A stretch of 64,000 bases of DNA from Desulfolithobacter dissulfuricans (GTDB lineage Bacteria; Desulfobacterota; Desulfobulbia; Desulfobulbales; Desulfobulbaceae), in the NCBI RefSeq assembly GCF_025998535.1, contig NZ_AP024233.1, forward strand, positions 372,001 through 436,000, read 5' to 3'. The notes under the pieces were generated by a model. That model had not been told where the DNA came from. It did not search any database and saw nothing but the letters and a program-made list of their open reading frames with translations. A program made the position numbers and the translations under genes. Shown here piece after piece: positions 5,867 to 16,118 of this stretch (position 1 is its first letter; every line of letters begins with the position of its first letter).

Positions 5867-6361
5867 CATGTGAGGCTGACTTGTTGGTCAAAGTCGCGCC
5901 TCGGCACGAAACTTTATCCGGTTCTGCAACGAGCTCAAGACGCTCTCTCAGGTGTCAGAGTTGGTCTACTATGCAGTGATAATGTTATTGATACCTCGGA
6001 TCGGTTCGGTGCGCGTGGAGTCGTGACGGGCTGTCTCCATCATTGGGTTAAGGGAATCTCCTTCTCGTTTCAGCAGTTATTCCTCGCCACTGTCTAGCAA
6101 CTGGTTGTCCTGGCAGTTGTTTCCTTGCATTTTTTCAGCCGTCTGGCCCGATTTTGGCCAGAGTCGTGATGGGTATGTTTTGCGCTCCCTGTTCTTTTTG
6201 CAGGAAATTCGAGATGTGCTTGCGCTGTAAAGAACAGGCGTATAAAGAGGGCCGTAACAAGTAGGTACTTTCAGTAAGATGCAGGCCGGGGAAGCACCAC
6301 TGAAAATCAAAATCAAAGTTCAGAAAACCGGAATTACGGAACATTATTCCGCAAACACGGA
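5867..6361. other. Convergent intergenic region with small hairpin
   Basis: This is about 0.5 kb between the ends of two convergent genes. A short hairpin at 6337-6351 (CGGAA...TTCCG) lies just past the stop of the PEP-CTERM gene and could help terminate it, but a strong T-run is missing. No gene is recognised. Confidence 0.4.
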
Positions 6362-7117
6362 CTATATGTCTAGGAGTTCTGTTTTCCGGCCCGTTTTTTT
6401 CTTGCTTCTCCGTCTCAGGGCTGTCAGGCCAGCCAGGCCTGTCCCCATGAGTATCATCGAAGCTGGTTCCGGAACTGGAGCGGGATTGACGGTATCTGTA
6501 TCGGCCGAGAACGTGAAGGACATGGGTCCTGTCCAGCTTGAAAGATTGGGCTCGATGGTAAGGGTACGGTAGAGGTCATCCACGGGAGCTGTCCCGACAA
6601 GCGCCACTGCGTTGGAATACGTGGCAAGTGTGCTGGAATCAAAAAGAGATTCAGAAAGAAGATCGGCAAACTCGAAGGGCCAGCCACTTCCTGAGTTGGG
6701 AGTGCTGGGATAGAGTATCGGATTTGAAGCATAGGTTCTGGTGCCATCAAAGACAAAGTCGCCGCTGCCGGCATCCAGCGTCAGGCTGGTAATAGCCGTG
6801 TCACTCTCAAAAGCCCACGGAGAAAAATGGGACGAATTCGGATAAGTGGATCCGTTTTCCACTTGCAGGCTCCAGTTGTTCCCAAAGGCCCCGCCTGAAC
6901 CGGAACCAAGACTTTGCCACACTGCGGTTTCCATCGTGCCATCACTGAAGGTGACGCTGACCTCCATTCCTTCCATGTCATCACCGTATGTACCTGCACA
7001 GACGACACTATCTATGTACCAGATGGTTCCCTCCTCATAGGTGATGGAAACCGCAGCAGCCGTTGATGTATAGAGCAGCGCAGCACCAAGAAATATGAAC
7101 ATGATATGATTTTTCAC
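6362..7117 (-). CDS. PEP-CTERM sorted extracellular protein
   Basis: The C-terminus has the full PEP-CTERM sorting signal: VPEP, a hydrophobic helix (ASMILMGTGLAGLTAL), then RRRSKKK. Such proteins are cut by exosortase (EpsH/Xrt) and are typically exported to the surface or the exopolysaccharide matrix. I start at GTG 7117, which gives MKNHIMFIFLGAALLYTSTAAA, a good signal peptide, with GAGGGG about 10 bases upstream; a longer TTG start at 7159 is less likely. The body (about 200 residues, Ser/Thr/Gly-rich) is not a family I know. An exosortase gene is expected elsewhere in the genome. The exopolysaccharide operon lies next to it. Confidence 0.85.
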   Translation of the reverse strand: MKNHIMFIFLGAALLYTSTAAAVSITYEEGTIWYIDSVVCAGTYGDDMEGMEVSVTFSDGTMETAVWQSLGSGSGGAFGNNWSLQVENGSTYPNSSHFSPWAFESDTAITSLTLDAGSGDFVFDGTRTYASNPILYPSTPNSGSGWPFEFADLLSESLFDSSTLATYSNAVALVGTAPVDDLYRTLTIEPNLSSWTGPMSFTFSADTDTVNPAPVPEPASMILMGTGLAGLTALRRRSKKKTGRKTELLDI

Positions 7118-7465
7118 GACGTTGTTTCCCCTCACTAAGTGATTACCTGGTCTTCTCAACTTTTTTCTTTGTCTTTATTGCTTGCACAAAATAGACCAAA
7201 AAACAAAAAAACAATCCGCAACGCTCTCAAGGAAACTCTCGCTTTTCCCAGATGACGAAAGCGTAAGTGTTAAAGAGCCACATTTTTCTCGGCTGTCACG
7301 GCCTGGTTCTTCGGCTGGCTGCTTCAGCCGTCTGCCTTGACCGCCGAGAGCCGATTGGCTGAACCTGAGGGTGGCGAGGCGATGGGGCTGAGGGGTGACC
7401 AGGGTATGTGCTGTCGGTCAATTATACGTCGGACTGCATGCCAGGGGAGGTGCAGCAGAATACTG
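7118..7465. other. Intergenic region with nested inverted repeats
   Basis: This separates the exopolysaccharide operon from the PEP-CTERM gene. Two nested stems are visible: outer CTCGGC (7288-7293) with GCCGAG (7343-7348), and inner CGGCTG (7312-7317) with CAGCCG (7325-7330). No T-run follows on either strand, so this is a structured leader or weak terminator at best. The A/T tract near 7190-7215 probably belongs to the PEP-CTERM promoter. Confidence 0.4.
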
Positions 7466-8779
7466 TTATCGATTCAACGGTTCGTTCTTGACAATTTTGG
7501 AAACCTTCCAAGGGTTCCATTTATCCATATAGGACACTCGGTGGAAGAGTTCCATGATGTAGGCATAAGTTCTGACTGTTCTCAGGAAGAGACCGGTGTA
7601 CAGCGGCATAAGTGGAATAAAGGCGATGAGCCGTTTTTCTCGTCTGCGTATTGTTTTTCCAAGCAAGGCAACCGCGACAAAAAATTCCAGAAAATTTGCC
7701 AGGCTGTAAAGAAACATATTAATGATAAAAAAAATTTCAACCTGGCTCCGGCCGATTATGAATACCTGGGCAATATATATCCACCACTTGATGTCAAGAA
7801 GAAGATTGAAAACGATGTTGTCTGCCGAAGCCAGGAAATTTTTTATGTTGAAACTCTTGGATGGCAGCAGAATATCCCTGTGCCTTCTCACTCGAAAACG
7901 GATGAGAGAACGGTCCCAACGGAAACGTTGCCTGGCGAGTTTGGTAAAAGTATCCGGACAATTGGTATAACAGATTGCATAAGGTTCATGTACAACCTTG
8001 TATCCGAGTTTACGTATCTTGAGTGTGATGTCTCCGTCCAGACCGGGGCCGACATCCCAGCCGTAAATCCGTTGTAGAATATCGCGGCGAAAGGCGCCAT
8101 GGGCTCCGGCGATGATTCGCAGGATGCCAAGTTCCGAGGAGACGGTGCGCCCCGTGGTAATTGACTTTAAGTACTCTATAGCCTGCAAGCGGGTCGCAAA
8201 GCTGACATCCGTGTTTGCGACCCGGACATCTCCGCCTACAGCACCGACATGTGTGTCCATGTAAAAGGGCAGCAGAATGGTTTCTATGGCATTATGTTTC
8301 AGGTGGGAGTCGGCATCCAGATGTATAATATATTTTCCCCTGGCATACCTCAGGGCCGTGTTGGCCGCCGAGGCCTTGCCTCCACGGATTTCATTGCGGA
8401 GAAAAAGATCTATTTTGCCTTCTCGCTCCAGCTTGCGACATATGACGGGAGTGTTGTCATCAGAGCCGTCGTCGACAATGACTGTTTCTATGTTTTTGTA
8501 AGTCTGATTGGCAAGAGATTCGGCCAGTGCCGGAATATGCTTACCCTCGTTTTTACCGGGAACGATCACAGAGACTAGCGGGCGTTCGCGATACAACTTC
8601 CTGCGGGCTAATTTATATCTGATTTTTCTGAGTCGCCGTTTGGGGATGTAGACGAGCAGGACGACAAAATCCAGAAACAGGTATCTTGTCATGTCGACTA
8701 AAAAGAAAGGCCAGAAATAGGCCAGCATTTTCATGAGGGTCAAATCAGCGACAAACTCGCCAAGGGAGTCAAGCAGCAT
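7466..8779 (-). CDS. Processive family-2 glycosyltransferase (exopolysaccharide synthase)
   Basis: This is a membrane-bound GT2 synthase of the cellulose/PNAG/alginate type. Numbered from ATG 8779: N-terminal hydrophobic region 15-46, GT-A core with VSVIVPGKNEG (about 69), DDGS (103), DADS (155, metal-binding DxD), DGD (248, catalytic base position), and QRFRW (284, the QxxRW motif of processive enzymes), followed by C-terminal membrane segments. I choose 8779 because it overlaps the previous stop by only 11 bases, suggesting translational coupling; an in-frame ATG at 8857 would overlap by 89 bases. It should polymerise a nucleotide-sugar in the cytoplasm and extrude the chain. The sugar cannot be read from sequence. 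Confidence 0.88.
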   Translation of the reverse strand: MLLDSLGEFVADLTLMKMLAYFWPFFLVDMTRYLFLDFVVLLVYIPKRRLRKIRYKLARRKLYRERPLVSVIVPGKNEGKHIPALAESLANQTYKNIETVIVDDGSDDNTPVICRKLEREGKIDLFLRNEIRGGKASAANTALRYARGKYIIHLDADSHLKHNAIETILLPFYMDTHVGAVGGDVRVANTDVSFATRLQAIEYLKSITTGRTVSSELGILRIIAGAHGAFRRDILQRIYGWDVGPGLDGDITLKIRKLGYKVVHEPYAICYTNCPDTFTKLARQRFRWDRSLIRFRVRRHRDILLPSKSFNIKNFLASADNIVFNLLLDIKWWIYIAQVFIIGRSQVEIFFIINMFLYSLANFLEFFVAVALLGKTIRRREKRLIAFIPLMPLYTGLFLRTVRTYAYIMELFHRVSYMDKWNPWKVSKIVKNEPLNR

Positions 8780-10181
8780 AATGGCTAAGTACTTTCTCCA
8801 GGCAGGAGTCCGGATCAAGGTCAGGCGTGATCTGCCAGATGGCGAAATCTGCGTCAAATGTGATATCGAGGTTGGTCTTGAGCAGGCTGCCTATGCGTTC
8901 CTTGATTCTCTTGAGAGCTCGCTCACCGTCCTCTGGAGTCGTTTCAGTCAGGATAATCAGGAACAGTGTTTCGTTGCGCATGGTAAAGAGATCAGAACTG
9001 CGGAGGTTGGCCTTGAATGCTTCACTGATCTCATCGAAAATTTCCCGGGTGCGTTTCCCCAGCCTGGTGTACAGTTCCTCGATTCCGCCTAACCGAAGTG
9101 CTGCCAGCGAACTGACTGTTACACCGTATCTTTGTATTCGCGCCTGCTCGATACGGAAGAATTCCTTGAACGCGCTGAACGCAAGGGCATGAACTTTACT
9201 TTCAAGAATGTTTTGAAACAGAGAGTCCATGCCGTAACTGGCGGCATTTTCTCCAATGGCTGTGATTGTGTAGGATTTGATGGAGCGTTGCACCTGATTC
9301 TCCGGCTCCGTTTCCCGATGGCAATTATAACAGGAAGTCATAACCCCGGCTTCCTGAAAAACATTGCCGCACTGGTTGCAGTGGTAGACAATAGAGGTTT
9401 TGTCATAATCAACCCCTATGTGATTCAGGGTTTTGTCACATTTGGGGCAGATCAGTTCATTACCTTGCCGGTATTCGGACAGTCCCCCCACATAGGCGCA
9501 CTTGAAATGGTGAATCAGCTCATCTGTGACAAGGTCGCTGGATCCACAATCAGGACAGGTTTCGAAAAAATTCAGGAAAGCGCAACCGCAATGGGTACAT
9601 GAGTAGGCGGAACCGGTGAATGTGCCTGAAAGCAGTCGTTGTGTTTCAAGGTACTCCAGAGTTTCGAAGATTCCGTTGTCAGGTTTTGGGAAAAGAGGCT
9701 GCAGGGCCGGAAAGATGTATCCGCTCAATGCCTGCACGGATGGAATCGGTTCCGCTGTCAGGTTGCGGGAGGCGATAAAGCGCAATATCTTGAAAGCGAT
9801 ATTGGTATCATTTTGATTAGGTTGGCCGGTGTACTGGTGGATTTTTTTGTTTATCCCCTCGAGCCTGGCTGTCCAGCTTTCGAGCTGTTCATGCAGGGAA
9901 TGCCCCATCGCCTGAATGGCCCCGTCCGCAGACTGGAGAATGTTTTTTGGCACCGACTCCGGGCCCGGTAAAAAAAGTACCGGTCGCAAGTACAATGCAG
10001 GGTCGACCATACGACGTATCCGGCAGAGCTGCCGGTAGGCGGCATGCGGATCGGAGCAGTCAATCAGGAAAAAGGCAACCTTCTCATCGTCAACTGACGA
10101 CAGGCTGTCAATATCTGCCACAGGAATGTCCACGGGTGGACGTGGCATGTTGGACGATGGGATGAAAACCGCAGTTCTCAT
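8769..10181 (-). CDS. Zinc-ribbon protein with degenerate GGDEF-like domain (exopolysaccharide regulator)
   Basis: The 470 residues fall into three parts. Residues 1-115 look like a receiver-like alpha/beta domain (VAFFLIDC, YLRPVLFLPG) without a clear phospho-acceptor pattern. Residues 190-290 hold five CxxC pairs (C195/198, C209/212, C245/248, C268/271, C284/287), i.e. two or more zinc ribbons; the arrangement recalls the TackOD1-type metal-binding region seen next to diguanylate cyclase domains. Residues 340-455 have the length and spacing of a GGDEF domain, but the active loop reads RNETL, so no cyclase activity is expected. It may sense c-di-GMP-related or metal signals for the synthase encoded next. 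It overlaps its upstream neighbour by 4 bases. Confidence 0.65.
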   Translation of the reverse strand: MRTAVFIPSSNMPRPPVDIPVADIDSLSSVDDEKVAFFLIDCSDPHAAYRQLCRIRRMVDPALYLRPVLFLPGPESVPKNILQSADGAIQAMGHSLHEQLESWTARLEGINKKIHQYTGQPNQNDTNIAFKILRFIASRNLTAEPIPSVQALSGYIFPALQPLFPKPDNGIFETLEYLETQRLLSGTFTGSAYSCTHCGCAFLNFFETCPDCGSSDLVTDELIHHFKCAYVGGLSEYRQGNELICPKCDKTLNHIGVDYDKTSIVYHCNQCGNVFQEAGVMTSCYNCHRETEPENQVQRSIKSYTITAIGENAASYGMDSLFQNILESKVHALAFSAFKEFFRIEQARIQRYGVTVSSLAALRLGGIEELYTRLGKRTREIFDEISEAFKANLRSSDLFTMRNETLFLIILTETTPEDGERALKRIKERIGSLLKTNLDITFDADFAIWQITPDLDPDSCLEKVLSHYAA

Positions 10182-11164
10182 AGCTTTCTCCCTCTGACCT
10201 TGAGAACAATCCGATCGTATTTCTGCCAGATTTTCTCTTCTTCCGGATCAAGAGGTACGAGTTTGATCCGGATCATGGTTGATATGGGAATGTAGTCCTT
10301 GCGTTGCCGCTTTGCTACGGCCTGTGCCGATGAGCTAATCTCGTCCACCCGACCGATACTCTGATAACGGTCAGGAAAAATAATGGTCATCTGGCTGCCG
10401 GGAGTAATGTATTGCAGATATTTTTCTTTTGTGTATGCATCAATATATACAGGAGCCTTGTCTGCAATAAGGACAAAAAGTGGCATTCCGCTGCGTATAT
10501 ATTCATGTTCCTTTGCCTTGACCAGATAGACCATGCCGTCAAATGGTGCGATAATCGTTTCATAGCGGCAGGAAGGGTCTGGAGGCTTGGATAGCAGTTG
10601 CTGTAAGGTGACAAGTTCTTCCTGGCGGACGGTGATTTCCGCTTTAAGAAGTTGTACCTTCTCCCGAAGTTTTTCCTCCTTGGCAGTCTGCTTTTCCATT
10701 TTGCGACGGGATGAGGCGGAGCCAATCTCCAGGGCACGGTACAGGATTTCGGTATCCGCTCTCTGGCCTGTTGATTTCAGCTGCTCTTGAAGAATGGCCA
10801 GTTTTGCCCGCATCCTTTTGATGTCATAGATTAATTTTTCTATTCTCAGGTCAGGGCTGTCTTCGCATTTACCTGGCCGGGCTATTTGCGCCAGTACTTC
10901 TCCTTGAACAACAAGGTCACCTTCGGTTTTCGCAAGTTGAACAATTTCTCCTCCCTTGACACTGCTCAGTACGGTTTTCTGGTGTTCAACCTGTCCCCGG
11001 CCTGTAAAAAACACTATTCGCATGGCCATCAGGTATAACACGCCAGCGACAATGGAAAAAAGTGCCAGGAAATATATGAACTGGGTAATTCGTGGCAGTA
11101 TGCGGGTCGGAGGTTTTCCTTCCGGAAGATTATTGAAATAGCTTTTCCGGGTGCGGAGTTTCAT
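10178..11164 (-). CDS. HlyD/Alg44-like membrane-fusion protein
   Basis: 328 residues: a single inner-membrane anchor at about 27-49, a lipoyl/barrel-sandwich half (GEIVQLAKTEGDLVVQGEVLAQI), a coiled-coil hairpin (about 115-200), the second lipoyl half (IIAPFDGMVYLVKAKEHEYIRSGMPLF) and a beta-barrel end. That is the order of HlyD-type adaptors, which bridge an inner-membrane machine and a TolC channel. In this operon it should link the GT2 synthase to the outer-membrane protein encoded just upstream. There is no PilZ domain, unlike Alg44. The start overlaps the 3' end of the TolC-like gene by 35 bases, and its stop overlaps the next start as ATGA. Confidence 0.85.
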   Translation of the reverse strand: MKLRTRKSYFNNLPEGKPPTRILPRITQFIYFLALFSIVAGVLYLMAMRIVFFTGRGQVEHQKTVLSSVKGGEIVQLAKTEGDLVVQGEVLAQIARPGKCEDSPDLRIEKLIYDIKRMRAKLAILQEQLKSTGQRADTEILYRALEIGSASSRRKMEKQTAKEEKLREKVQLLKAEITVRQEELVTLQQLLSKPPDPSCRYETIIAPFDGMVYLVKAKEHEYIRSGMPLFVLIADKAPVYIDAYTKEKYLQYITPGSQMTIIFPDRYQSIGRVDEISSSAQAVAKRQRKDYIPISTMIRIKLVPLDPEEEKIWQKYDRIVLKVRGRKL

Positions 11165-13214
11165 GGTCTACAGTTGTCTTTTGAAAAAACGTTCTGAACT
11201 GGTGAATTCCGTACTGTGTTATTCCTGTGGACAAGACGAGCTTGTCTATCATCTTTTCAAGGGCCCATTCATCCCTGAAATCAGACGCCCGTAAAACAAT
11301 CACCAGCTTGCTTGATGCTATGTTATCCAAAACAGTCTGCAGCCGTCGGGTTAGCACGTCCGGATCTGTCGTGCCATAGGCCATCACATACACTCTGTCT
11401 GCAATTGAATCAAGCAAATGGTACGTTTCTGCAGGGAAATGGAGGGGCACGTCCACGCTTAGCCTGCGGTCCAGAAGGCCCTGTTTGATTTTTTCGAGGA
11501 ACTCGATATACCATTCGAGATATTCCTTCTTTTTCTGGCGAAAACCAGGCAGGGTATGGGGTTCTACATCAAGATGGACAATGCCTGTCCGTTCGGCGAG
11601 GGTTACGGCACGTGCGAGAGCAGTTTCCTGATTTTCCGGAAAGATCCAGTCAGGTTGACCGGTGAGCATTTCCACCCGGATATTATTTTTCTCTGCCATT
11701 GTCAGGAAATCCGTTATCTTGCCAAAAGAGCTTTTTGTGCTGGCAGAAAGCAGGACTCTGTCAATCTGTTTTGCCTTGAGAAAATTAATCAGATTTTCAT
11801 TGCTTATGGCACTAAAGCCAGCAGACCAGATGTAAATACTGCGATCTCCCAGGCGCGCCCTGTTCAGGCCGGGCGTCAGACTGACTTTTTGGACCAGGTC
11901 AGAGCGATAGGGCAGAGCGGACGCAAGAAACATCTCGTTAACCCTTCTGTACAGCTCCTCCTTGGCGCGCAATAACTCGATTTTGGCATCCAGCAGTGTG
12001 AGCATTCTCGTTATGGCCACCGGCATAAGCGTGTCGGCACCCATTTGCAACTCCAGTAAGGTTCTTCTGAACCTTTCCCGGGCCTGTGCCTGACGATAAT
12101 GTGCCCGGACAGTCCGGCGCAGCTGTTCTCTCAGGCTGGCATGGGCAGCTCTGGTTTTGGCAATCCGTTTCCAGAGCAATAGGGATTTGTTCCGCTCAGC
12201 CTGCAACAGCCTGAGTCTCAGCTCGTCGGTCTGCCTGTCGTAGAGAGGTATGCGAAATCTCAGGCCCGTGACAAGGTCATCCCCTGACGTAGTGCTGTTG
12301 TTGATATCGAAATTCCGACGAACGAAGAGGCTCAGTGAATCAGGTATGTCGGCATCATCTTCGGCCTTGAGCCGTTCCTTTTCCAGGTTTGTGAGCATCT
12401 CCGGTCGGTTGTCGGATAAAATGGCCTTGATCATGCCCGACAAATCCACGTCAAGCAAGGGTGGCGAATAAAGATTTGTAGTGGCTTTTTTGGGAGTGTA
12501 ATCCTGATTCAGGTAGGTAAGTTCCTGCCTGGTCAGAACAAGATTCTCTTCCGAAACAAAATAGTCGTCAAGAAAACTCCAATTGCTGAAATAGGCTCGC
12601 CGTTCTATTGGATAGACTTTTTCAAGCAGTTGCAGTTTCATCATCAGCAGAATGGTGAGTGCCTCTGAAAAAGATTGATTGATATTGTAACTCCGGCATC
12701 TTCCCTCCCTCTCGTTCTGTCGCATATCCTGCTGAATTTCTGCTATCTGTGCCCTGTACTCCAGTGCATCAGCCTTTTTGCCATACTGGAGGTATCCGTT
12801 CTTCAGAACGTCCCATGAGAGTTCAAGGTTTGCCGAACTGTCATCGAAGCCGCCCTGGTCCGAGCCCTCATTGGCAAGATCCCCGGTCGCATAGTATCCC
12901 CGGAGTTCAAGACCGGTTCTTCTCCTGATTTGAACGGCCTGTTCGCGGAGGATATCGGCCCCGAAAGTATGTTTCTCTTCGTTTCCAAGGCATGGCGCCG
13001 TGAATATTTCATCCACGGTTGTCATGGGTTGTTCGGTGGCAAATTGACGATCGAACTGTTCGTTAAGCGATAACAGCAGATCCATGAATTGCTGATGCTC
13101 GGAGGGATTCGAGGAAAGGCACATCGCCGGCCAGAACACAGTGAAAAAAAGAAGTGCTGTCAGGCCGGGAGGCAGGGAGAAGGGGCTTGATTTGAGGCGG
13201 TTCAGGGAAAGCAT
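11130..13214 (-). CDS. TolC-like outer-membrane channel fused to a GH18-like glycosidase domain
   Basis: 694 residues with a signal peptide (to about residue 33). Residues 60-455 show the two-repeat layout of outer-membrane efflux proteins: a strand pair followed by long charged helices, twice (GLELRGYY...WDVLKNG and GLRFRIPLYDRQ...). Residues 457-680 form a separate alpha/beta barrel (SIYIWSAGF...) with HLDVEP (547-552), where E551 fits the catalytic acid of GH18-like enzymes, and a later VMAYGT (610-615). This is an unusual fusion: a periplasmic polysaccharide hydrolase tied to the exit channel would parallel PgaB, BcsZ or AlgL. It is first in the operon. No good ribosome site precedes the ATG. 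Confidence 0.7.
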   Translation of the reverse strand: MLSLNRLKSSPFSLPPGLTALLFFTVFWPAMCLSSNPSEHQQFMDLLLSLNEQFDRQFATEQPMTTVDEIFTAPCLGNEEKHTFGADILREQAVQIRRRTGLELRGYYATGDLANEGSDQGGFDDSSANLELSWDVLKNGYLQYGKKADALEYRAQIAEIQQDMRQNEREGRCRSYNINQSFSEALTILLMMKLQLLEKVYPIERRAYFSNWSFLDDYFVSEENLVLTRQELTYLNQDYTPKKATTNLYSPPLLDVDLSGMIKAILSDNRPEMLTNLEKERLKAEDDADIPDSLSLFVRRNFDINNSTTSGDDLVTGLRFRIPLYDRQTDELRLRLLQAERNKSLLLWKRIAKTRAAHASLREQLRRTVRAHYRQAQARERFRRTLLELQMGADTLMPVAITRMLTLLDAKIELLRAKEELYRRVNEMFLASALPYRSDLVQKVSLTPGLNRARLGDRSIYIWSAGFSAISNENLINFLKAKQIDRVLLSASTKSSFGKITDFLTMAEKNNIRVEMLTGQPDWIFPENQETALARAVTLAERTGIVHLDVEPHTLPGFRQKKKEYLEWYIEFLEKIKQGLLDRRLSVDVPLHFPAETYHLLDSIADRVYVMAYGTTDPDVLTRRLQTVLDNIASSKLVIVLRASDFRDEWALEKMIDKLVLSTGITQYGIHQFRTFFQKTTVDHETPHPEKLFQ

Positions 13215-13356
13215 GTCGTATGAACTGTAGCCAGCCGGTCCTGAAAAATATCAGTTACAGACTGTTCGAAGCCTTGTCGGCCGAGTCAGTCCGCTGAAGC
13301 AGAACTTTGCTCATCTTGTCAATAGGAGTAATAACCTAATAATTTAACGAAAAAAA

Positions 13357-13385
13357 TTAATAATGAAATGGATCCCCACTGTCAA
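13357..13385 (-). promoter_or_regulatory. Sigma70-like promoter of the exopolysaccharide operon
   Basis: On the minus strand TTGACA (13385-13380) is followed after exactly 17 bases by TATTAA (13362-13357). It points into the four-gene operon and would give a leader of about 135 bases. Perfect -35, four of six at -10. Confidence 0.5.
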
Positions 13386-13430
13386 GAAAGAATTACTGAA
13401 AAATAAGGCGATTTTCAGCGCTCTCCATCA

Positions 13431-13472
13431 TTTCATGTGGATTTGATGATAACGGATCAAATCCACATGAAA
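13431..13472. repeat. 17-bp perfect inverted repeat
   Basis: Arms TTTCATGTGGATTTGAT (13431-13447) and its exact complement (13456-13472) enclose an 8-base loop. It sits 16 bases past the stop of the Tim44-like gene and about 45 bases upstream of the exopolysaccharide promoter. No T-run follows, so it could be an operator or a processing/termination hairpin. Confidence 0.6.
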
Positions 13473-13487
13473 CAGCCAGAAGTCTTT

Positions 13488-14411
13488 TCATTTGACCACT
13501 TGGATCCCTTCCAGCTTCCAGTTTTCCGTGCCCACAGGGCGGGCCCAGGTCCATTTTTCGGCAAACTTGACCGGCTCGGTCATGCTCCCTTCAACCACCT
13601 CGCCTGTGTTTTCATCCACCGTGTAGTCCAGCAGGTTGGCGGTGAAGAGGATTGTGACAAAATCCTCACCGTCCACACAGCCTGCATCAACAATCTCCAC
13701 CTGGCGGATGGCGATGGATTCCAGCTTGTTGATGATGCCTTTCTGCCGCATTTCGGCAAAATGATGGGCATATTCGCTTGCAAGCTCTTTGCCGAGCAGG
13801 TGGCCGTAACTGTCAAGGTCGCGACGCATCCATCCGGCCTGGACCTTGAAAAAAACGTCGGATGCCACTTCCTTGAAATGATCCGGATCAAAGCCTGGGT
13901 CATGGGCCCGGATTTCGGCAAGACCTGTTTCCACAGGATTGGCCGGAGGCGGAACCGGTGGTACAGAGCTCCCCGGTTGTCCCGTGTTTGCACGGGCATG
14001 CATGTCTGAGAAAGATCCCTGTGTCGGCGGGGGCTGGTAGCCAGGACTGCTGTTTGCCGTTGGCCTGGCCATGAACCGGCGATACATGAAATATCCGATA
14101 ACGCCAAGGATCAGAAGCGGCAGGATGCCCATGCCGGAGCCACCCATGCCGAACATGGATCCAAACAGCATACCACCCAGGGCACCGCCCAGTAATCCAC
14201 CGGCCAGTCCGCGGCCAAAGCCTGATCTGTTGCCGTTTATCTGCTTGGATGGTCTCGGCGGAATGTTTTTTGTTGGTGCGATCCGCTTGAAAGATCTGCC
14301 ACCTCCCCGGGAACGGGCATCGGCATACTGGGCGGTAAGGCCGGCCTCCATGAAGGCCAGGGTGAAAAAGATGAGTAAAAACGGGGTTAAACGCCTTAGG
14401 TGTGTATACAT
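13488..14411 (-). CDS. Tim44-like domain membrane protein
   Basis: I start at ATG 14411 (AGGAAAC 8 bases upstream) rather than ATG 14447. Signal or anchor segment at 8-30, a Gly-rich hydrophobic region (GFGRGLAGGLLGGALGGM, then ILPLLILGVIGYFMYRRFM), a Pro-rich linker, and a C-terminal Tim44/MBA1-like domain of about 150 residues (FKEVASDVFFKVQAGWMRRDLDSY ... KLESIAIRQVEIV ... FAEKWTWARP). Bacterial relatives are widespread envelope proteins with poorly known roles; the domain belongs to the cystatin/NTF2-like fold group. Single-gene unit, transcribed on the same strand as the exopolysaccharide operon but separated by the inverted repeat. Confidence 0.8.
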   Translation of the reverse strand: MYTHLRRLTPFLLIFFTLAFMEAGLTAQYADARSRGGGRSFKRIAPTKNIPPRPSKQINGNRSGFGRGLAGGLLGGALGGMLFGSMFGMGGSGMGILPLLILGVIGYFMYRRFMARPTANSSPGYQPPPTQGSFSDMHARANTGQPGSSVPPVPPPANPVETGLAEIRAHDPGFDPDHFKEVASDVFFKVQAGWMRRDLDSYGHLLGKELASEYAHHFAEMRQKGIINKLESIAIRQVEIVDAGCVDGEDFVTILFTANLLDYTVDENTGEVVEGSMTEPVKFAEKWTWARPVGTENWKLEGIQVVK

Positions 14412-14594
14412 GTGTAGTTTCCTGTAAAGTTGAAGTATGAGGTACACCAGAAGTAGACTGTACTACCTGGTTGTCGGTTTGTCATGGTTTTGGGTGCATT
14501 TAAACCAATGAATGGTGAGAGGAATCCCCCTTGTCCCTGGTTCTATCGTGAGACTGGAGGACGGCCTGGTCTGGCTTGTAACCGCTGTGAGCTG

Positions 14595-15443
14595 TCAGGT
14601 CGTGGAGTGGCCCGATGGCGGGAAGGTCAGCAGGAGCCCGGAGCCCATGGGGTGGATTTTGCCGGGCAGGGCGTCGGACAGGCTGGAGATGGCATGGGTT
14701 CCTGTGCAGTGGCCGGCGTAGACTTCCGAGAAGCCGAAACGGGTGATGGTTTGCAGGGTTTCCTCGATGTGGTTGGGTTTGGCTGATTTCAGGTGCAGGC
14801 CGCCGATGAGAGCGTGGAAGCGGTTGATCCCGAGGTTGACGGCGATGTGGTCGCAGGTGTTTTCGAGTCCACTGTGACAGCACCCCAGGATAAGCACCGG
14901 CCCATACCCGGTTTCCAGTACCAGGGCGGTATCGTCAGGGATGGTATCGGTCGTGCGTCCCAGGGGATCCAGGTAGAATCCCTGGATCGGTTCGAAGTTG
15001 CCCGCCTGGCGGGTGATATTGGTGACCATGGTCAGGCCGGGGCCGAGGCGGGCGGTATCTGAGACCGGGATGAGCTGGCTGGCGAGCCGTTGTCTGTTCA
15101 CTGTCCTCAGGCCGATGGCGCGCGGTGGACTGCAGCAGGAGCAGGCATAGCGGCCGGTCATGACAGCTGGATGTCCGTAGATTGGACCCGTGAAATCCGT
15201 TTCCCGCCACAGCCTGTCCAGCCCACCAGTGTGGTCGTAATGTCCATGACTCAGGGCCAGGCCGGAGAGTTGGGCCAGATCGATTCCCATGGCACGGGCA
15301 TTGTCGAAAAAGATGCCGCTCTGGCCAGTGTCCCAGAGCCACCGGTCGCCCGAATCCAGGAGGATGACCAGGCTCAGGCCATGCTCCCGGGCAAGGTGGT
15401 CGTCCAGGGTGTTGTTGTCGATGAGGACGCCGATTCGGGGCAT
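14595..15443 (-). CDS. MBL-fold metallohydrolase (RFAP-synthase-like)
   Basis: 282 residues with the metallo-beta-lactamase signature HGHYDHTGG near residue 65, a later GCCHSG (about 188, metal ligand) and GGLHL (about 214) typical of the subgroup annotated as 7,8-dihydropterin-6-methyl-4-(beta-D-ribofuranosyl)-aminobenzene-phosphate synthase-like hydrolases. In bacteria these are generic cytoplasmic metallohydrolases with unknown substrates, and the methanopterin role should not be assumed. It lies 24 bases downstream of the DUF2959 lipoprotein stop and may share a transcript with it. Confidence 0.8.
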   Translation of the reverse strand: MPRIGVLIDNNTLDDHLAREHGLSLVILLDSGDRWLWDTGQSGIFFDNARAMGIDLAQLSGLALSHGHYDHTGGLDRLWRETDFTGPIYGHPAVMTGRYACSCCSPPRAIGLRTVNRQRLASQLIPVSDTARLGPGLTMVTNITRQAGNFEPIQGFYLDPLGRTTDTIPDDTALVLETGYGPVLILGCCHSGLENTCDHIAVNLGINRFHALIGGLHLKSAKPNHIEETLQTITRFGFSEVYAGHCTGTHAISSLSDALPGKIHPMGSGLLLTFPPSGHSTT

Positions 15444-15467
15444 ACCAGTGGCCGGTCGGGTCGGGGT

Positions 15468-16118
15468 TTATGCTGATTTCATGGCCTTGATAAAGCTGTC
15501 CGCCTCCTCCATGGCCCTCTCCATTTCCAGGATCAGCCGGGACACATCCGTCTCTATCCGGGTCAGCTCGGTCTGGAGCGAGGCTATGGCCCGGGCGTTG
15601 AGGTTGTGCTTGAGGAAGAGGACCTGATCCCTCAATGGCTGAAGGACCGGCTCGATCTTGGCCTCGGCCTTTTTCATGGCCCGGATCAGTTTGGCGTACT
15701 GCCTTCTGGTCTGCCGAAGCTGTTGTTCACTGGCCTGGCGCAGGCTGGCGCTTGAGTATTGATCAAGTTCGGCTTCCCATTCGTCGAACAGGGCTTCGGC
15801 CACATTCTCCACGGCTTCGATACGGTGGCGTACTTCTTTGGCCTGTTTTTCTATCCGTTCCAGTTCATCTTTGAGTTCAAAATATTTTTCCTCCAGGGCC
15901 CCGCCCTGAAAATTGACCACGCTGCTGAAATGTTCCAGGGCCGAGGCAAACTGTTCCTTGGTCTTTTCCTGGCTGTCCCGGGCGGCCTGGACCCGATCGA
16001 CCAGGATGTCGCGCTTGTGGACGCCGACCTTTTCCATGGCCCCGTAGTAGACGTTGCTGCAGCCGGTGAAAAGGAGAACAAGGGTACAGATCAGGATGGG
16101 TTTCAGGGAGTGTGACAT
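15468..16118 (-). CDS. DUF2959-family coiled-coil lipoprotein
   Basis: 216 residues starting with a lipoprotein signal (LLFTGC, Cys about 20). The rest is almost entirely charged helix with heptad-like spacing, including VHKRDILVDRVQAARDSQE near the N-terminus and RQTRRQYAKLIRAMKKAE in the middle, which match the DUF2959 family as I remember it. Family members are periplasmic or outer-membrane lipoproteins of unknown function. Followed closely by the MBL hydrolase. Confidence 0.75.
   Translation of the reverse strand: MSHSLKPILICTLVLLFTGCSNVYYGAMEKVGVHKRDILVDRVQAARDSQEKTKEQFASALEHFSSVVNFQGGALEEKYFELKDELERIEKQAKEVRHRIEAVENVAEALFDEWEAELDQYSSASLRQASEQQLRQTRRQYAKLIRAMKKAEAKIEPVLQPLRDQVLFLKHNLNARAIASLQTELTRIETDVSRLILEMERAMEEADSFIKAMKSA

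Follow-up and report, generated by a model that had tools for sequence, protein, structure and literature searches.

A four-gene set encoding a predicted exopolysaccharide machine is described in a window of 64,000 nucleotides from Desulfolithobacter dissulfuricans (NZ_AP024233.1, the single 3.6-Mb contig of this genome); coordinates without a locus name are positions in this window. The four genes are located on the minus strand between 13214 and 7466, each overlapping or abutting its neighbour, as an earlier note on this DNA had described, and are arranged from 5' to 3' as OEP-GH (694 residues), HlyD (328 residues), TackOD1/GGDEF (470 residues), and GT2 (about 437 residues). The predicted products altogether suggest synthase-driven export of a polymer through a TolC/HlyD duct that carries its own hydrolase, under the gating of cyclic di-GMP (c-di-GMP), and a probability of roughly 0.7 is given to this reading.

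In this proposed self-contained, synthase-dependent machine, the GT2 enzyme would act on the cytoplasmic side, polymerising a nucleotide sugar that is most likely UDP-N-acetylglucosamine or a derivative, and the chain would be threaded through the inner membrane. The HlyD adaptor would link to a TolC-type trimer, so that a closed duct is formed with no ABC, RND, or MFS pump belonging to it; the push would come from the synthase. The GH18-like barrel would be located in the periplasm around the duct, where it may cut the polymer, release it, or limit its length. The TackOD1 protein is considered to be cytoplasmic, since no membrane segment is predicted in it. Where a lineage has diguanylate cyclases, this protein may bind c-di-GMP at the I-site of its GGDEF domain, which is predicted to be catalytically dead, and thereby turn the synthase on, as PelD does for Pel; the Bacteroidota would have retained the protein and lost the site.

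A broader claim is favoured by a smaller degree of confidence, namely, that the set represents a widespread and undescribed secretion class, in which a closed TolC/HlyD duct containing its own GH18-like hydrolase is driven only by the synthase and gated by a TackOD1-GGDEF c-di-GMP receptor of new make-up, with the ligand site lost where the messenger is absent. If true, many environmental bacteria, including sulfate reducers, clam symbionts, and a wide variety of Bacteroidota, have a route of matrix-sugar secretion that has escaped description, and a first function would be given to TackOD1. The proposal opens two questions to testing, namely, whether a polymer made by a synthase can leave through a TolC-type duct and what TackOD1 does, and offers a natural experiment on the fate of a c-di-GMP receptor after its ligand disappears from a lineage.

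Conservation of the four-gene set

A collection of 84,980 species was scanned with a profile of the TackOD1 alignment, and the best 80 of the 320 relatives reported were kept; being chosen by similarity, this set leans toward window-like members and gives a lower bound limited by the search pattern. Loci from further genomes were added to the 80, and L006 and L032, which duplicate L043 and L055, were left out, both being kept in the locus gene listing and in the GG[DE]EF count of 93 sequences described below. No relative was confirmed by an initial scan based solely on the OEP-GH protein.

Among the 91 non-duplicate TackOD1 loci, 72 carry OEP-GH, HlyD, TackOD1, and GT2 in this order on one strand, the full order being present in 70 of the 80 named loci. 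The four genes are thus conserved together across genomes, as the earlier note had expected. A second order, TackOD1, GT2, GH protein, and HlyD, was found at six loci, and the channel half was detected in two of them (L039 and L095). TackOD1 stands alone at four loci, with full context in L036 and L041 and near contig ends in L038 and L040; the remaining nine are cut by contig ends or have three parts visible. As judged from record titles, the full set spans six phylum-level names, and its hosts include Desulfobulbus/Desulfogranum, Desulfuromonadales, Gammaproteobacteria (Rheinheimera and Thiodiazotropha), Nitrospirae, Aminicenantes, WOR-3, and many Bacteroidota. Near the window the distribution is patchy, TackOD1 being above the cut-off in 11 of 395 genomes of the phylum and the OEP-GH protein being present in four of 57 relatives' genomes, with the host's own genome included in both counts.

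A number of loci weigh against a fixed machine of four parts. The iterated profile did not detect the channel half at the second-order loci L033, L034, L035, and L037, and no OEP was detected by Pfam in L034; the contig of L035 stops before HlyD. L036 and L041 are without the other three genes in spite of their full context. L007 has OEP-GH, HlyD, and a cut GT2, with no TackOD1 gene there, and L076 (Caldisericaceae by title) has three of the four parts, HlyD, TackOD1, and GT2, with no OEP-GH in the 1.9 kb visible upstream.

Among the flanks of 87 loci, no pump gene was common to most, and for this reason the synthase is the likeliest motor of export. An ABC ATPase was found near nine of the 87 loci, one third on the same strand, and the largest cluster of flanking genes (32 loci) is a signalling family, again one third on the same strand.

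The predicted channel-hydrolase fusion protein

The first gene of the set (11130..13214) encodes a 694-residue protein, in which an outer-membrane factor is predicted to be fused to a GH18-like (beta/alpha)8 barrel. The earlier note had read it as a TolC-like protein with a GH18-like C-terminal barrel, and structure prediction had been set beforehand as the test that could refute this reading; both the TolC-type half and the GH-like barrel were present in the AlphaFold model (alignment of 61 members; predicted local distance difference test (pLDDT) 88.2, predicted template modelling score (pTM) 0.78), with fold matches of Z about 20 for each half.

The TolC/OprM-type half (residues 69-433; 11916..13010) was modelled as four beta strands in two hairpins together with long helices. 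It matched TolC/OprM channels by Foldseek (E 1.5e-11) and TOprJ1 by fold comparison (Z 20.1, root-mean-square deviation (rmsd) 5.8, 361 residues aligned), and the OEP profile (PF02321) was matched by Pfam at 2.1e-5 and 24.9 bits, above the cut-off of 22. The hairpins, the long helices, and the profile match altogether place this half among the TolC/OprM outer-membrane factors.

The barrel (residues 455-685, 11160..11852; also delimited as 452-683) has eight strands between residues 457 and 671 in the model, and is similar to the putative chitinase 4wiw (Z 19.5, rmsd 3.4, 227 aligned) and to the C-terminal domain 4p7o of PgaB (Z 18.1, rmsd 3.6, 228 aligned). GH18 enzymes carry a D-x-E after strand 4. 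In the window protein, the motif H547-L-D549-V-E551 (11562..11576), which had been correctly read earlier as HLDVEP with E551, puts the predicted catalytic D549-x-E551 just past strand 4. Among homologues with letters at these columns, D549 was present in 79 of 81 and E551 in all 81; Y613 was present in 79 and D645 in 77 of 83 rows.

The barrel fits GH18 by predicted fold (Z up to 19.5), not by sequence: the GH18 motif DxxDxDxE reads GxxHxDxE here, D-x-E alone being kept, and no GH18 family was matched by Pfam at E up to 1. These two departures speak against a working hydrolase. The reduced motif, together with the E at the D549 position in the Bacteroidales members L063 and L067, would suit a dead barrel that guides the polymer by carbohydrate binding, an alternative that is doubtful but of some weight; the conservation of E551, D549, Y613, and D645 argues for a hydrolase instead.

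A search of PHROGs with the OEP-GH protein returned nothing. An OEP-GH relative in L007 (1746-4556) carries N-terminal Sel1 repeats, reminiscent of the repeat scaffolds in other exopolysaccharide systems.

The adaptor, the synthase, and the probable polymer

The second gene (10178..11164) encodes an HlyD-type periplasmic adaptor of 328 residues. The match to HlyD_3 (PF13437, 1.2e-14), above the cut-off, and the single N-terminal hydrophobic segment (residues 22-40 by hydropathy) are those of an HlyD membrane fusion protein. The last gene (7466..8779) encodes a processive GT2 synthase of about 437 residues (PF00535, 4.7e-28), and the earlier calls of a GT2 and an HlyD-type adaptor were thus supported by Pfam. 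Of the earlier GT2 coordinates, 7466-8857, the end at 7466 was kept and the start was moved to 8779; the start is most likely the ATG overlapping the TackOD1 stop codon, because the closest homologues align from there.

Residues D181 and D183 (D181xD183), D274, and Q310, R313, and W314 (Q310xxRW) were present in 83 of 83 aligned homologues, truncated or too short rows having been excluded from the GT2 alignment and tree. QxxRW, a mark of processive synthases, was found in 86 of 89 GT2 segments, and the three misses are short pieces. Among the NCBIfam models, PgaC was the best, and the matches also included NodC (81 bits), HpnI (43 bits), and cellulose synthase (29 bits); it counts against a Pga-type synthase that PgaC is only the nearest model, with its 146.2 bits far below the cut-off of 422.3.

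The usual cargo of TolC-type ducts is small molecules or proteins, and this, as well as the presence of NodC and HpnI among the matches, would agree with a short oligosaccharide or a glycolipid as the GT2 product, exported by HlyD/TolC and trimmed by the barrel. Such a product is, however, quite improbable in view of QxxRW in all the aligned rows and the higher score of PgaC; in addition, no lipid gene was included among the gene clusters common to at least six loci.

A polymer of N-acetylhexosamine type is favoured because of the PgaC-like synthase, the GH18-like D-x-E, and the deacetylases, LysM domains, and TviB-like dehydrogenases of relatives. One protein family was found beside seven distinct loci (L054, L055, L066, L089, L095, L107, and L120); it shares the strand of the operon at five of them and is reversed in L055 and L095, and its L120 member is located between HlyD and TackOD1. 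It is a polysaccharide deacetylase by Pfam in L107 (4.5e-7); for the L120 member, whose Pfam matches comprise only its C-terminal domains, the link to the deacetylase is made via profile homology. It speaks against the present reading that this deacetylase adjoins only seven of the 91 loci, with two of them on the opposite strand, and that it was not found in the genome of the window by a search made without a positive control. An N-terminal LysM is present on three members (L110, L117, and L121). In L098 and L111, a TviB-like dehydrogenase lies between HlyD and TackOD1; its scores of 460 and 459 bits are below the cut-off of 592 and pass that of the general nucleotide-sugar dehydrogenase model.

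No GH domain was detected in the OEP gene of L098. Replacement of the GH domain by the TviB-like dehydrogenase was considered and rejected, since L066 has both and the contig of L111 starts inside HlyD, its OEP being unseen. The dehydrogenase of L066 (3661-4962, minus strand), of the same nucleotide-sugar dehydrogenase family, lies upstream on the other strand, at a locus with both a GH domain and the deacetylase.

The known or proposed HlyD-partnered synthases make beta-glucans, and the polymer might likewise be cellulose or a mixed-linkage glucan, as in XcsAB-TolC or BgsBA. This substitution is decidedly unlikely, given 29 bits for the cellulose synthase model against 146 for PgaC, and since the GH18-like barrel, along with the genes for deacetylase, LysM, and TviB-like proteins in some relatives, points to N-acetylhexosamine.

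The TackOD1 protein as a predicted c-di-GMP receptor

The third gene (8769..10181) encodes a 470-residue protein composed of an N-terminal domain, a TackOD1 zinc domain with conserved Cys (residues 123-306; 9264..9815; PF18551, 1.3e-47), and a degenerate GGDEF domain with a weak Pfam match (E 0.033, below the cut-off); what had been described earlier as a 'GGDEF-like/zinc-ribbon' protein can thus be identified by named domains. In the AlphaFold model (pLDDT 90.7, pTM 0.70), the C-terminal GGDEF domain was aligned with DosC at Z 15.2 (rmsd 2.8, 142 aligned, 25% identity). Fold matches to PleD span residues 1-470, and the N-terminal domain is only tentatively called receiver-like because these matches have an rmsd of 12.4 or more. 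GG[DE]EF was found in none of the 93 TackOD1 sequences, its place being occupied in the window protein by NETLF (403-407).

The predicted I-site (8907..9131) is composed of R351, R394-x-x-D397, and R425. R351 is aligned with an Arg of DosC, and all four residues are invariant in 13 sequences that were not selected by I-site state. R351 and R394 are 43 residues apart, and R394, D397, and R425 are spaced as 3 and 31, the latter being the spacing of PleD. According to the WspR report, c-di-GMP is bound by R242xxD245 together with R198 of a neighbouring domain, with spacings of 44 and 3 (PMC2270323), and according to the PelD report, R367, D370, and R402, with spacings of 3 and 35, are required for both c-di-GMP binding and pellicle formation (PMC2170427). 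The PelD-like combination of a GGDEF fold, no catalytic motif, and a kept RxxD was found in the window protein and the non-Bacteroidota members, and not in the Bacteroidota. The TackOD1 protein is therefore predicted to be a c-di-GMP receptor. The literature found on TackOD1, PF18551, or arCOG06883 dealt with archaea only, subscription papers being mostly outside the search, and the function of TackOD1 is called obscure in one such paper (PMC5847659).

The distribution of the I-site was compared between Bacteroidota and non-Bacteroidota, sorted by hand from organism titles. The R, D, R set (R394, D397, and R425) was present in 29 of the 30 non-Bacteroidota versus none of the 61 Bacteroidota, the duplicates being dropped. 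The sole exception, L058, is titled Kuenenia and is nested among the Bacteroidota in the GT2 tree; this Kuenenia stuttgartiensis contig comes from a genome without a GGDEF match and is probably a misassigned bin. For the comparison of columns, the sequences were grouped by the state of R394, D397, and R425, whose invariance in the 29 follows from the grouping itself; R351, which had no part in it, was present in 29 of 29 and in none of the 62 others, where R425 was kept in four and R394 in 20. The I-site group has 23 near-invariant columns, of which 20 were kept in at least 55 of the 62 others and only R351, R394, and R425 were lost; in the lineages without the site, the former Arg positions have since come to hold many different residues.

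Matches to the GGDEF family PF00990 were surveyed in 34 hosts, chosen by hand from those of the 80 named loci, genome completeness not being given. Each of the 12 I-site hosts had between 3 and 77 such matches, the best with an E of 2.6e-49 or lower, and 19 were found in the host genome of the window. Among the 22 hosts without the I-site, 20 had none, and the other two (G459, above the cut-off, and G466, below) had one match each, which by coordinates is the operon's own gene.

The GT2 tree showed a single change of I-site state, and the association of the I-site with GGDEF proteins is therefore one evolutionary event; this sample size of one, along with the manual choice of the 34 hosts, weakens the case for a receptor. 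The single change, as well as the retention of the protein without the site in Bacteroidota, would also be consistent with Arg residues whose role is in dimerisation and whose drift in Bacteroidota had other causes, the TackOD1 protein being no c-di-GMP receptor. This explanation is unlikely, because the loss was confined to R351, R394, and R425 among the 23 columns (R394 and R425 having been used in the grouping), because the spacing fits R198 and R242xxD245 of WspR, and because, among the surveyed hosts, other GGDEF proteins were present in all that keep the site and found in none of the rest. The role of a c-di-GMP receptor is preferred here.

TackOD1 proteins with an intact I-site are also encoded in L036 (8832-10256) and L041 (6474-7913). 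These loci lack the export genes, and the predicted receptor therefore occurs outside this system as well. The gene next to TackOD1 in both is presumably CYTH-like, as judged by eye from its motif.

Relation to known export systems

The nearest relatives by working principle are XcsAB-TolC, BgsBA, Pel, and Pga. The earlier note had contrasted the set with the dedicated porins of Alg, Bcs, Pga, and Pel; this contrast holds, but the idea of HlyD/TolC ducts for glycans has precedents in XcsAB-TolC and BgsB. In a review, cyanobacterial cellulose export by XcsAB-TolC is described as proposed without experimental validation, and the parts of the model, Tll0007, Tlr0903, TolC, and Tlr1902, as scattered in T. 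vulcanus (PMC12430437). As far as described there, that model shares with the present set a GT2, an HlyD-type adaptor, a TolC channel, and a cognate glycanase, and its synthase carries a PilZ domain. Its hydrolase is a separate endoglucanase, whereas here a dedicated TolC has its own GH18-like barrel and a separate TackOD1-GGDEF protein is the likely receptor. Components of the XcsAB-TolC type are here present and syntenic, and may form one duct. BgsB is the HlyD-like partner of the mixed-linkage glucan synthase in rhizobia, and BgsBA is similar in having a GT2 and an HlyD-like partner in one operon and in its post-translational activation by c-di-GMP; it differs in that c-di-GMP binds to the synthase C-terminus and that the operon is described as bicistronic (PMC9495663).

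The likeness to Pga lies in PgaC as the nearest synthase model, in the barrel fold shared with the PgaB hydrolase domain, and in the deacetylases beside some relatives. The likeness to Pel lies in the receptor. PelD is membrane-bound and Pel is exported via PelB and PelC, and PelD is not known to carry TackOD1. PelD is likewise a receptor without GG(D/E)EF and with RxxD plus a further Arg (PMC2170427). In Pga, PgaA is a tetratricopeptide-repeat (TPR) porin and PgaB is a separate two-domain enzyme, according to one report (PMC9384988); the PgaA TPR-porin, PgaB, and PgaD were all absent among the four genes and near neighbours, the rest of the genome not having been searched for them. No description of this four-gene set was found by literature searches combining its parts, which left subscription papers mostly outside. 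Relative to the known HlyD/TolC glycan ducts, the set thus appears new in being integrated, widespread, and undescribed in the literature searched.

Neighbouring features

A perfect 17-nucleotide inverted repeat with an 8-nucleotide loop (13431..13472) is located between the upstream Tim44-like gene and the OEP-GH gene, and may terminate the Tim44-like gene or act as a regulator site. Over window positions 6000-15000, no Rfam family, c-di-GMP riboswitches included, was matched at the gathering score. In L069, a gene at 13291-15933 encodes CotH-kinase and chitobiase-type domains, and its family recurs downstream of GT2 on the same strand at nine loci. A gene for a PEP-CTERM protein adjoins the operon of the window (6362-7159, minus strand). 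In the same-family genome G013, a PEP-CTERM protein of 37% identity is encoded on the other side of the operon and on the opposite strand (L006, 7430-8203, minus strand), and the host genome of the window has one exosortase match, at about 325 kb from the operon.

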